A stretch of DNA of 64,000 nucleotides. Source: Pedobacter frigidisoli. Lineage in GTDB: Bacteria; Bacteroidota; Bacteroidia; Sphingobacteriales; Sphingobacteriaceae. The notes under the pieces are model-generated. The model did no database searches. It saw only the letters and a program-made list of their open reading frames with translations, and was not told where the DNA came from. The position numbers and the translations under genes are program-made. Below, piece after piece: positions 5,077 through 18,796 of the stretch; within the stretch, counting starts at the first letter, position 1; each line of letters starts with the position of its first letter. The stretch lies in contig NZ_SJSN01000003.1 in assembly GCF_004331675.1 (NCBI RefSeq), positions 1-64,000 of the forward strand, written 5' to 3'.

Positions 5077-6137
5077 TCATCGACCTCTCTTTCTAATTTC
5101 TTTTTCAGTACCAGGCGCTTGACCTTTTGATCTATATTGGTCATATTGATCCTGGAAGGTTCGCTCATCATAGAATATTACCCTATCCCCAAGTATCAAC
5201 CCCTCTGGATTTTCTAAAGGTTTGACCATCCTCCCGAAGTCAACTATCTCTTTCCCATCATGTACCCTTTTGGTACCGTGATTGATTAGTGTGAACCCGG
5301 TGACATCCTTACCGGAACTGTGATAAACGATATCTAAATTTCCCATCGTCGATAGTAGACTACCGAGATCGGATTTAAATTTTTTCTTAAGTAAAGATGC
5401 CAGAAAGAAGGATGACGAAACGGTTTGCCGGATACAATCCGTAAAGCCGCCTCAAAAACTTGTTGGAGTGCTGAAGTAGCCTCCACGAGGGGATGATACA
5501 TTTTTATGCAATCATTAATTATATTGAGATCTATTGAGTGAAGTGTCCTGTTATGCTTCACTATATGCAACGCAGAATCTTTGATGTAACCAGAATAGCC
5601 CATGTTCTTTAAAAGAATTTTAAACTGATCCAAGCTTGTAAAACCGTAAGTAAGTGCGTTATTGGCATCTACCTTAGCCTGTGCAACCGGATCAAAACCG
5701 ATGAGTTCATGTAGTGTCACAGAGCCCCTAAATTTTTCATAACTTGATGGTACCGACTTTCTATCCTTACAAACTCTCACAGAAATGATATGGACATGGT
5801 TGTTCGGGTTGTCATTATGAAAATAAATCAGATAAGGATTATCGGCGTATCCCATTTTTTTTAACCAAAGATGGGCTATATCAGTCAGCTCATGTTTACT
5901 GAGGGAAGTTCCCTTAGCCATAATGCTTACATGTAGCTGCTTATTTCTGACCTTTGGATTAAGTGTTCCGATCATTTGCAGATAGGACTTGAAATCTGCA
6001 GCCCTGGGTTTTTCTAAGACGGATAGGCTCTGAAAGTTTATGACAGACATGAGCTCAGCCTTGCCCGAAGCTACTTTATCGGCATTATACTTTACAGCCG
6101 GAAACCTGCTATTGGATGAAAGAAACTGGACGATCAT
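5077..6137 (-). pseudogene. Relaxase/mobilization nuclease (MobB-type), frameshifted
   Basis: The first 267-aa frame (6137 to 5334) is a Bacteroidota relaxase of the Pfam Relaxase type: the HUH-like metal site is in HNDNPNNHVHII near residue 107, after a Tyr-containing N-terminus. The frame then ends in a non-homologous tail. The adjacent frame continues the expected C-terminal part: ASLLKKKFKSDLGSLLS runs directly into MGNLDIVYHSSGKD and FTLINHGTKRVHDG, ending at 5077. Joining the two frames needs a one-base correction near 5395-5405. A relaxase nicks oriT and leads the strand during conjugative mobilization; this copy is probably inactive. Confidence 0.75.
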
Positions 6138-15656: not shown

Positions 15657-16058
15657 TTATTTGGTTTTTAATAGATCGAGTTTTTCTCTCTCACTTGCAA
15701 GAAGTCGTTCGTAAAGCTCGACAATTTTCTCAATTGTATTGAAAGAGGGCTGATAATTCAAAGAACTCGCTATAAGCGTTGAGCTGTCACTACTGGTATT
15801 ATGAAATGTATTTGAAATAATATTGAAAACAGCCTCATCAGAATACCCTTTAATTGCTTCACTTGATACTCCTAATACTTCGGCTATCTTTTCCAAAGTG
15901 GTATCCTCAACTTGTTCGTTCTGTTCTAACTTACTAATTGCCTGCTGACTGATTCCCAATGCTATTGCAAGCTCTTCTTGTTTCATGCCACGCAATTCAC
16001 GAATTCTGCTAATTTTTCTACCAAGGTGCATTTTACTTGTTTTTTCTGAGGTTTCCAT
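15657..16058 (-). CDS. XRE-family transcriptional regulator
   Basis: 133 aa from the ATG at 16058; a longer frame up to 16166 has a composition unlike a protein start. A Cro/C1-type helix-turn-helix spans about residues 12-65 (KISRIRELRGMKQEELAIALGIS then QQAISKLEQNEQ). The C-terminal half is a helical region, possibly for dimerisation. It is divergent from the sigma/Cas12f-like operon with a 256-base shared intergenic region, so it may control itself and that operon, but no operator repeat was clear. Confidence 0.88.
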   Translation of the reverse strand: METSEKTSKMHLGRKISRIRELRGMKQEELAIALGISQQAISKLEQNEQVEDTTLEKIAEVLGVSSEAIKGYSDEAVFNIISNTFHNTSSDSSTLIASSLNYQPSFNTIEKIVELYERLLASEREKLDLLKTK

Positions 16059-16314
16059 GTCGTAAATATATTTAAAATTTTTTGGCAGTGAAAAACAAAC
16101 GGACGCTTGTATTATACAACCTGATGTGGTTCGGTACATGCCTTTTATATCCGAAATTGCAATCACAATTAATTATGAAGATATGAAAAAGAAACAATAA
16201 AACCTAGTGAGTGCACAGAATCGCCACTTTGTTTGTTTTTTCAAGGTAGTGTCATAGAATATCCTAAGCAGAAAATAAACCGAGAATAATTTAAATAATT
16301 TGTAAGGAAAGGTG

Positions 16315-17163
16315 ATGTTCACTAAACCTGAATTTAAACAAGATCCAATGAGTCCATCGATGCATCCCTCTTCCGCCGAACACAAAGAAAACTTCATCCA
16401 GTTCCAAAAAGGAAATGAAAAAGGCCTTGAATTTTTTTACAAACTCCTGTACCCCTCATTATATTATAGTGGATTAAGGTATATCAAGGATGATGTGAAT
16501 GCAGACTGTATTGTCAATGAGGCATTTTTAAGGCTGTGGCTTGCCAGAAAAAAAATTACAGATGCAAGCCAAGTCAGGACTTTTGTTTCTAAACTGACCT
16601 CGGATGGATGTAAAGCGTATTTTAAGACTTCTAGTAATCGTTTCAACCGCAATATGCTGAGATTGGACGAGATAGAGAATTATCAGGATTTTATGGTTGG
16701 ATGTGATGGCACTTACGAAGTTGACAATGAAATTCTTTGCGATCCAAAAGAGGAGATGAATATAAGAAGACAATGGGAAGAGGTCGAGGTAACCCTCTCA
16801 ACCCTGACCACAGTGCAACAACTCTTTATTCGCCTATGTATCAAGTACTCGTTCGATTATGGCCGGATCGCATGGCATATAGGAGGAATTTCCGATTATC
16901 AGGTAGCAGTTAAAGTGGAAAGAGCACTCAATCGCTTAAAATCAATCATAACAGAGACCAAAAAACTCAATGTTACAGGAAAAACGGACAGGTTCAAGTT
17001 CGAGGGTGATATATCAAAGGAGCAGCAGGCTATTCTAAGAATGCGTTATGAGCTCCAATACAGCTTTGAAGAAATTGCCCATGAACTGAATCTCAACCAG
17101 CGGCATATTCAACAGGCCTTTGTCAATGCATCATTAAAAATAAAGAAAACCAAAATCATGTGA
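16315..17163 (+). CDS. ECF-like sigma factor linked to Cas12f-like protein
   Basis: 282 aa from the ATG at 16315, with a purine-rich AAGGAAAGG just upstream; a GTG directly before it is also in frame. A sigma2-like domain spans about residues 27-110 (FIQFQKGNEKGLEFFYKLLYP, YIKDDVNADCIVNEAFLRLW). A first sigma4-like helix set spans 160-213 (LSTLTTVQQLFIRLCIKYSF) and a second, more canonical one 233-278 (SKEQQAILRMRYELQYSFEEIAHELNLNQ, written here in part). Usual ECF factors have one sigma4. The next gene starts one base after its stop, so both are almost certainly co-translated. I infer it recruits RNA polymerase when bound to the dead Cas12f-guide complex. Confidence 0.85.
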   Translation: MFTKPEFKQDPMSPSMHPSSAEHKENFIQFQKGNEKGLEFFYKLLYPSLYYSGLRYIKDDVNADCIVNEAFLRLWLARKKITDASQVRTFVSKLTSDGCKAYFKTSSNRFNRNMLRLDEIENYQDFMVGCDGTYEVDNEILCDPKEEMNIRRQWEEVEVTLSTLTTVQQLFIRLCIKYSFDYGRIAWHIGGISDYQVAVKVERALNRLKSIITETKKLNVTGKTDRFKFEGDISKEQQAILRMRYELQYSFEEIAHELNLNQRHIQQAFVNASLKIKKTKIM

Positions 17164-17164
17164 T

Positions 17165-18262
17165 ATGAAAAGCAATGTACTAGTGATTACCCGTAAGATT
17201 CAATTGCTAATCGATTCAGAGGACAGGGAATTCATCATACAGGCAAAGGAACAGCTCTACAACTGGCAAAGGATATGTTTTCGATCTGCAAATATGATAA
17301 TGAGCCATCAATTTATACAGGAGCAGGTAGCGGATTTTTTTTACCTCACCCAAGAAATAAAGATGAAGATTGCCGATCAAAAAAAAGATGAAAATGGTAT
17401 CTTGGTCTCCTCACGACAAAACACAACCTACAGGCTACTGTCCAATCATTTTAAGGGAAAGATTCCAACTAACATCCTCAGTAATCTGAATAATACCCTG
17501 ATCTCCTATTTCAATAAGGAAAAAGATGGTTATTGGAAAGGTGAAAAATCCTTAAGGAACTACAAGCGGAATATTCCATTACCATTCGGCCCAGAGGTAC
17601 TTTCCAAGTTCACATTTACCACGGACAATAAGAACCTTTGTTTTAGGCTGTTTCAAATTCCTTTTAGAACTTATCTGGGAAAGGATAAGTCCGATAAGAT
17701 GCAGATGTTGAAACGGATTATGTCAGGAGATTTGAAGCTTCGCACCAGCCAGTTACAGCTTGATAAGGGAAAGGTGTTCCTGCTGGCAGCTGTTGACATA
17801 GAAAAAGATCAACATTCGCTCGACGCTGCGGTCATTGCGGAAGCTGCGCTCTCAATTGAGCACCCTGTAACGATCAGGATCGGAATTCGCGAACAGACCA
17901 TCGGGTCTAAGGAAGAGTTTCTGCATCGTAGGCTTGCGATCCAGGCCGCTATCCATAGGGTGAAAATAGGGGCAGCTTTCAACCGTGGTGGTCATGGGAA
18001 GAAAAGGAAAATGAAAGGCCTTGAGGACTATAAGCACATGGAGAAACGATACGTAGAGCAAAAACTACATCTCTACAGTCGGATGGTGATCGACTTTTGC
18101 ATAAAATACGGGGCTGGAACAATACTTCTGGTCAATCAGCAACAAAGGGAAGAGATAGCGAAAGGAGATGCATTTCTCTTAAAAAACTGGAGTTATTACA
18201 GCTTGAAGGAAAAAATTAGCTACAAGGCTGAAAAAGCTGGGATCCAGGTCATCGAAGAATAG
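17165..18262 (+). CDS. Nuclease-dead Cas12f/TnpB-like protein (dCas12f)
   Basis: 365 aa. The second half matches the RuvC part of Cas12f/TnpB: KKRKMKGLEDYKHMEKRYVE (279-298), KLHLYSRMVIDFCIKYGAGTI (300-320) and LLKNWSYYSLKEKISYKAEK (338-357) followed by AGIQVIEE. The strand that should read GIDLGI reads TIRIGI, with Arg238 in place of the RuvC-I Asp. The RuvC-II segment IVLENL-type reads ILLVNQ, with Val323 in place of Glu. The chain stops at 365, before the RuvC-III Asp and CxxC zinc finger. So it should bind RNA and DNA but not cut. The first 200 residues would form the WED/REC lobe. It follows the sigma gene by one base and precedes a guide-RNA-like segment. No TnpA transposase lies next to it. 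Confidence 0.82.
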   Translation: MKSNVLVITRKIQLLIDSEDREFIIQAKEQLYNWQRICFRSANMIMSHQFIQEQVADFFYLTQEIKMKIADQKKDENGILVSSRQNTTYRLLSNHFKGKIPTNILSNLNNTLISYFNKEKDGYWKGEKSLRNYKRNIPLPFGPEVLSKFTFTTDNKNLCFRLFQIPFRTYLGKDKSDKMQMLKRIMSGDLKLRTSQLQLDKGKVFLLAAVDIEKDQHSLDAAVIAEAALSIEHPVTIRIGIREQTIGSKEEFLHRRLAIQAAIHRVKIGAAFNRGGHGKKRKMKGLEDYKHMEKRYVEQKLHLYSRMVIDFCIKYGAGTILLVNQQQREEIAKGDAFLLKNWSYYSLKEKISYKAEKAGIQVIEE

Positions 18263-18335
18263 CGTTAAGAGTTTGTTTTGTTTGGGAAGTTAGCGATGTT
18301 GACAGACGGACTCCAATTTAACTTATTAAACTTTG

Positions 18336-18484
18336 CACGCATTGAGGAATGCTCATTTAATGCGATCGTAACAAAAGTGAATTTACAGAGAGACTGCTTG
18401 CACAGTCGTAGGGTGAAACAATTTTGTTTTCACTAATCCTTACTATACTTTAAGGAAATGCAATGGCGGGCTTCATGTTAAATA
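18336..18484 (+). ncRNA. Candidate guide RNA of the dCas12f-sigma system
   Basis: Ordered hairpins lie 75-220 bases after the Cas12f-like gene. (1) GCATT/AATGC stem with GAGG loop at 18339-18352 (an alternative CGCATT/AATGCG pairing extends to 18364). (2) GACTG/CAGTC at 18392-18407 with loop CTTGCA; the string CTGCTTGCA is, from memory, also in the loop stem of the Un1Cas12f1 tracrRNA. (3) GTGAAACA/TGTTTTCAC at 18413-18433. (4) TCCTT/AAGGA at 18437-18456, which looks like a repeat/anti-repeat hairpin fused in cis. The scaffold ends GGAAATGCAAT at 18464, close to the Cas12f repeat end GGAATGCAAC. The next 20 bases, 18465-18484, would be the guide, starting GGCGGGCTTC. The 5' end and guide length are estimates. 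Confidence 0.65.
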
Positions 18485-18796
18485 ACGATGTTAAGGCCTT
18501 GGAAATGATTTGAAAGGAAATCCATTTAAAAATGTTTAGGGTAAAAAACGCTCATGGAGCAATTACAAGTTAGTTAGGCGATGATAGAACCAAATTTCCT
18601 AGCAAGCTGAAATAGATGTCTATCTTTTAAGGAAAACCATACTGATCTTGTCCGAGCAACGGTAGTTTGGAGCGATTTACGACTTGAAATTTGGCCAAAC
18701 CATGGTTTTCTCCAGGGGCAGTAGCATAGAGAAAGCTAGGCAGTTCAAGACCTTGGCCTTATAGCTCACTGCGCTCAAACCATTGCCTTAAGACTC
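18485..18796. other. Noncoding region after the candidate guide RNA
   Basis: About 310 bases with no gene. It contains a 9-base inverted repeat GAAAACCAT (18632-18640) / ATGGTTTTC (18702-18710) and the palindrome AAACCATGGTTT around 18697-18708. No second scaffold copy and no T-rich terminator on the plus strand were found, so the guide RNA 3' end is undefined. Confidence 0.4.

Follow-up and report, generated by a model that had tools for sequence, protein, structure and literature searches.

Can a sigma factor be brought to its site of action by a guide RNA, and if so, to which genes? The question is raised by a short locus in a stretch of 64,000 nucleotides of Pedobacter frigidisoli DNA (contig NZ_SJSN01000003.1, positions 1 to 64,000; hereafter the window), where a sequence-only reading had seen an ECF-like sigma factor gene, a Cas12f-like gene and a structured noncoding RNA in line on the plus strand, and had proposed an RNA-guided transcription system. 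All three parts are indeed present, and they are arranged as follows (window coordinates; genomes, contigs and loci of relatives are cited below by our G, C and L handles).

16315..17163, plus strand: ECF-like sigma factor gene, 282 aa (Pfam Sigma70_r4, NCBIfam sigma70-ECF, relative of 9n9q chain C, RpoE)
17165..18262, plus strand: nuclease-dead Cas12f homologue, 365 aa (match to 9n9c, fold, missing catalytic residues)
18390..18435, plus strand: guide RNA (gRNA) scaffold, hairpins 1 and 2 at 18392-18407 and 18412-18434 (covariance model R1, covariation, RNAfold)
18437..18456, plus strand: gRNA hairpin 3 (RNAfold of 18388-18464; outside the covariation count)
18457..18464, plus strand: Cas12f-repeat-like end AATGCAAT, immediately 5' of the guide (exact target matches of relatives start after CAAT, CAAC or CAGT)
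18465..18481, plus strand: predicted guide GGCGGGCTTCATGTTAA, about 16-17 nt (leader matches of homologous guides)

The sigma factor ORF, for which a GTG at 16312 offers an alternative start, exceeds the cut-offs of both the Pfam Sigma70_r4 and the NCBIfam sigma70-ECF models, in agreement with its initial description as ECF-like. The sole significant relative of its product in the PDB is chain C of 9n9q, "RpoE" (E 4e-34), and this entry is among four that contain dCas12f (9n9c, 9n9m, 9n9o and 9n9q). As had been claimed, a single base separates the sigma stop from the Cas12f-like ORF, which begins at 17165. Both genes bear the mark of purifying selection, with pN of 0.20-0.23 versus pS of 0.84-0.86 for the sigma factor (4 relatives) and 0.13-0.17 versus 0.82-0.91 for dCas12f (5 relatives), the synonymous sites being saturated in both cases. 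Among 399 genomes sampled from the family of the window, 95 contain a dCas12f match, fragments counted. In the 30 best-scoring loci of this search, our own included, a sigma relative (spanning 127-282 residues) lies directly upstream of dCas12f in every case, and a search of these loci for homologues without a sigma neighbour yielded none.

The identity of the second protein is evident both from its profile and from its predicted fold, although the Pfam model Cas12f1-like_TNB scores it at 14.1 bits, below the cut-off of 26.3. Residues 4-363 match 9n9c, "Nuclease-deactivated Cas12f" (E 4.5e-129), and a profile of 26 sequences matches the same entry with an E-value of 1.8e-163. The folds nearest to its AlphaFold2 model (mean pLDDT 77, pTM 0.56) are 9n9m, entitled "dCas12f-gRNA-DNA complex (partial R-Loop)" (TM 0.80, 52% identity), and 9n9c (TM 0.78, 49% identity). 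In the fold search dCas12f ranks best (E 1e-38), followed by Cas12f proteins from E 3e-21 down, and the first TnpB (8h1j) appears at E 1.7e-9. The nearest named homologues, among the 120 matches listed of 972, are those of Pedobacter.

Examination of the putative RuvC active site supports the earlier suggestion that the protein does not cut. Alignment with Cas12f of 9nzo places the catalytic Asp at A228 of the window protein; the place of the Glu, which was read from the strand pattern because the alignment is gapped there, is occupied by V323-N324. In 26 relatives, chosen among the same 120 listed matches, position 228 is Ser in 22, Ala in three and Glu in one, and position 324 is Asn in 25 and Gly in one, such that neither catalytic residue is kept in any of the 26. 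The length of the protein is 363-370 aa throughout, and the C-terminal RuvC-III/zinc part is missing. Since the protein stops where this part of the nucleases would begin, the short version is the form of the family rather than a broken gene.

The noncoding stretch 3' of the Cas12f-like gene codes for a predicted three-hairpin RNA with a guide-like end (18388-18481), and the end that had been proposed for the segment, 18484, was about right. In order to assess its conservation, scaffold units 3' of dCas12f were collected with a regular expression, which gave 46 matches in 23 of the 30 loci and no unit in the other seven; four units were dropped before the covariation count (two false, two without a 3' arm), leaving 42. 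Across these, a two-hairpin structure that we specified has 95.9% of its cells paired, and in 7 of its 13 pairs both partners have changed. Its covariation score of 0.331 compares with 0.145 when shuffled (0/500) and with at most 0.158 when the structure is slid. Compensated changes are evident in both hairpins of the window scaffold. Model R1, built from the 42 units, matches the window unit at 18390-18435 with 60.1 bits, this unit being one of the rows from which the model was built. In 20 genomes of the genus, R1 (which scored 150 of roughly 1100-2000 first-look candidates per genome) detected the scaffold in all 10 with dCas12f and in none of the 10 without it, and none of its 17 matches is more than about 1.3 kb away from a dCas12f gene. 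Held-out units were recovered in G365, G317, G094 and G013 (the last weakly, E 0.003), and at the second of the G194 copies. The position of the gRNA varies: it lies between the sigma and dCas12f genes in G317 and G094 and upstream of sigma in G365. Some relatives carry tandem units, seven in G302 and five in G212.

For the window unit (18388-18464), RNAfold predicts three hairpins followed by the unpaired end AATGCAAT (-17.5 kcal/mol, z -1.81). When 20 further bases are included, the best fold breaks hairpin 1 and pairs the guide with it (z -1.35); the L013 unit also folds differently, even alone. At about 18530-18600, 3' of the gRNA, a second, decayed-looking scaffold can be recognized by eye (TTTAGGGT...GCTCATGG...ATTACAA), which model R1 does not pick up.

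The guides of the relatives lead to a conserved DNA element. The first gRNA unit of several Pedobacter loci carries the guide GGCGG(A/G)CTTCATGTTA, and this string with a G in front occurs exactly in three of six genomes searched (G194, G209 and G251), at one site each; at the gRNA loci themselves, the preceding base is T in six of six, not G. With up to three mismatches allowed, the pattern shows no excess over the reversed control in the six genomes, and at up to two mismatches this guide has no site in G215, whose genome is a single contig. All three exact sites are on the coding strand and precede a TlpA-like gene together with SusC-size and SusD-size genes. They are embedded in a conserved leader, roughly 300 bases long, in which we distinguish sites A, B and C. 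The homologous guides match site A exactly in G194, G209 (over 14 nt) and G251, and a G precedes site A in all 27 leaders aligned (28 loci less L094, which matches over 39 bases).

Guides and leaders were then compared in ten genomes that have both gRNA units and leaders, using one dCas12f locus per genome though some have two. Seven of the 20 units, in five of the ten genomes, match a leader of their own genome exactly over 13-18 nt. These matches are all in sense orientation, from the first nucleotide of the guide, right after CAAT, CAAC or CAGT, and in the eight unit-leader pairs the base in front is G in seven and T in one (G338). The remaining 13 units have no match of at least 13 nt in the leaders found. 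The reverse-complement control gave no match of at least 13 and four matches of 11 each; two forward matches (11 and 12) were taken as chance because they do not start at the guide. In G251 one guide fits site A and another site C of the same leader, and in G212 two guides match variants of site B in the three leaders of that genome.

Two further sets of sites lie outside this leader. Another recurrent guide, GCTCTATTGTAATTCC, was searched for in four genomes. Its exact matches away from gRNA loci, one in G206 and one in G344, fall within a gene and were not retained as targets. In G281 a possible second leader type is seen at L209:1501 and L205:1501, where a G-flanked GCTCTATTGTAAATCC differs by one mismatch from a guide of that genome. 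A SusC-like start follows the L209 site at a distance of about 320 bases, and the L205 stretch examined shows no SusC.

Of the 21 genus genomes with dCas12f, 15 carry the leader, as do 6 of the 20 without it (one of these over only 39 bases), so that it has another role as well. Reading on along the same strand from 11 long leader loci leads to SusC in 10 and to sigma-dCas12f in one, that of G215; the leader also adjoins the sigma-dCas12f locus of G194 on C5. SusC and SusD domains are confirmed by Pfam in the operons of the window's own genome and of G215, and SusC/RagA by NCBIfam in the former. Similarity among the SusC proteins compared is only about 37-45%, apart from the pair of G194 and G215 (95%). 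The leader appears to be a structured element that precedes divergent susCD operons (L120:5346-5640; L074-L101). According to RNAalifold, the 27 leaders would fold into a long hairpin that starts 5' of sites A and B and carries both in its 3' arm, and site C is located further downstream. Of the 58 predicted pairs, 18 show double changes, a count that leans towards itself, as prediction and count share one alignment. In three leaders, promoter-like elements are no more frequent than in shuffled sequences (3 vs 3.1, 1 vs 2.8 and 1 vs 3.3); terminator-like counts are 3 vs 0.8, 6 vs 1.9 and 1 vs 0.9, two of these 10 lying on the opposite strand. An attenuator function of the leader is one idea. 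Five loci were scanned with Rfam, and no match reached the gathering threshold. In leaders before a SusC or TlpA gene (L120 at about 6050-6120, L069 and L070), the end of a short peptide, ..DR/WLYAL/IKPKNP.., looks conserved by eye.

In the genome of the window itself, the leader pattern with up to three mismatches has a single match, at G000:C2:169425 (reversed control, 0), followed by genes for SusC (1134 aa), SusD and a thioredoxin-like protein. Site A of this leader agrees with the window guide in 12 of 16 nt; the mismatches fall at positions 5-8, and two of them would be rG-dT/rU-dG wobbles. By score the site does not stand out, for about 115 equally good sites per genome are estimated, a figure extrapolated from two sites, the leader itself among them, in a scan of 184 kb. 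The guide fits 7 of the 27 leaders better, at 15 of 16, all in other genomes. Searched alone against its own genome with up to 3 of 15 mismatches, it gives 61 matches, the locus itself included, versus 81 for the reversed control. We discarded the other 60 as candidates: eight are preceded by G, and of these, seven fall in open reading frames longer than 200 codons and the last, on C59 with 3 mismatches, sits between two convergent genes; the best raw match (C12, 2 mismatches) has no G in front and by our reading lies in coding sequence. The susCD leader at G000:C2:169425 is the likely target by homology and position, its agreement with the guide being only 12 of 16 nt. Either the mismatches are tolerated, or a fitting leader has been lost from this genome or is missing from its assembly.

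Our reading of the locus builds on the three parts, their conserved linkage, the covariation of the scaffold and the exact guide-leader matches in relatives. Very probably, the sigma factor, the dead Cas12f and the predicted guide RNA act together: they would form a single complex, the guide would bring this complex to a G-flanked DNA site, and the sigma factor held there would recruit RNA polymerase, such that transcription starts. Complex formation, binding of the RNA, recruitment of the polymerase and initiation without an ordinary promoter are what we infer. By homology, the target would be the conserved leader 5' of susCD outer-membrane uptake genes. As the leader also lies upstream of the sigma-dCas12f genes in G215 and G194, the system may regulate itself in these two genomes.

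This reading has to be weighed against three others. Some homologues are named "transposase" or "IS605 OrfB family transposase" in the sources, and the NCBIfam TnpB and Cas12f2 models match the protein below their cut-offs, which might suggest a functional nuclease, Cas12f or TnpB, belonging to a transposon or a CRISPR system. We give this almost no credence, in view of the loss of the RuvC Asp and Glu in all 26 relatives, the missing C-terminal part at a conserved length and the sigma gene in all 30 loci. The same linkage bears on a second possibility, that dCas12f and its gRNA are an RNA-guided repressor, in effect a naturally occurring CRISPRi, that acts as a block to transcription inside the leader, the sigma gene being only a co-transcribed neighbour. 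Dead RNA-guided proteins that act as repressors are known, as described for TldR in PMC13418256, and sites A and B lie inside a seemingly transcribed leader, where a roadblock would work. Yet the gene directly upstream of dCas12f is that of a sigma factor in all 30 loci, related moreover to the RpoE chain deposited with dCas12f, and we regard repression as quite improbable. TldR resembles the window protein as a dead RNA-guided protein turned regulator, but the latter is nearest to Cas12f rather than TnpB and is sigma-linked, and activation is therefore expected instead of repression.

The third alternative concerns the window copy only, which may be drifting or inactive, with its proteins and scaffold conserved and its guide lacking a working target in its own genome. 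The partial fit of the own leader, the lack of another good site in this genome, the better fit of the guide to leaders of relatives and the decayed-looking second unit all point in this direction. On the other side, both genes are intact and under purifying selection, the scaffold stems carry compensated changes, two of the four mismatches are wobbles, and an assembly of 60 contigs may miss a leader. We consider drift possible but the weaker case, and retain RNA-guided activation as the preferred reading of the locus.

What the system would achieve at the leader can be suggested only tentatively. If the leader hairpin forms in RNA, ordinary transcripts would begin before it, and initiation directed from site A, B or C would omit its 5' half. 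A guided start inside the structured leader of many divergent susCD operons might thus produce transcripts without the 5' half of the hairpin, which would escape the effect of the leader. One sigma-dCas12f pair with several guides could then switch a set of operons, with guides and leaders changing together, and also itself via its own leader; we hold this model to be rather doubtful as a whole.

The architecture had been thought to be previously reported, with this copy as a further member, and this proved correct, since the PDB already contains dCas12f with an RpoE chain. Like the dCas12f-sigmaE system of these entries, the window locus combines a dead Cas12f of 365 aa (49-52% identical, with the same fold), a related sigma/RpoE protein and a gRNA; unlike it, the locus belongs to another species with another sequence, its guide and leader families are those reported here, and some of the relatives studied here have tandem gRNA units or a gRNA between or before the genes. 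With the CRISPR-Cas12f nucleases (Al3Cas12f, 9nzo; AsCas12f, 7wju/8dzj; Un1Cas12f1, 7c7l/7l48) the window protein shares the fold, the N-terminal/RuvC core and the repeat-like end before the guide, but it lacks their catalytic residues and C-terminal RuvC-III/zinc part and has no intact RuvC active site. The founding papers on the dCas12f-sigma system were not found in our literature search, the coverage of which excludes bioRxiv preprints and most subscription papers.

What the present study adds is the leader, its sites and the agreement between guides and leaders, although whether these are already in print lies outside the coverage of that search. Preprints from the Sternberg and Chang laboratories on dCas12f-sigmaE reportedly describe a 5'-G flank and susCD targets, with which the sites in the relatives agree, and an ordinary promoter is said not to be needed in that system. 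The leaders offer a natural regulon for a mechanism that is known, in the records examined, from structures. In the Pedobacter genomes the guides, sites and target genes can be read together, as in G212, where two guide variants match two leader variants. Such pairs make it testable which susCD operons are switched, how many mismatches are tolerated and why the sites sit in a structured leader.

Finally, genes for Cro/C1-type HTH proteins are divergent from the sigma-dCas12f genes (in the window and G215) and from the leader-susCD operons (in the window's own genome and G215). Two of them, at 15657-16166 of the window (minus strand) and L120:4857-5222 (minus strand), are confirmed by Pfam, and those at L122:3649-4008 (minus strand) and L121:7096-7479 (plus strand) were recognized by eye.
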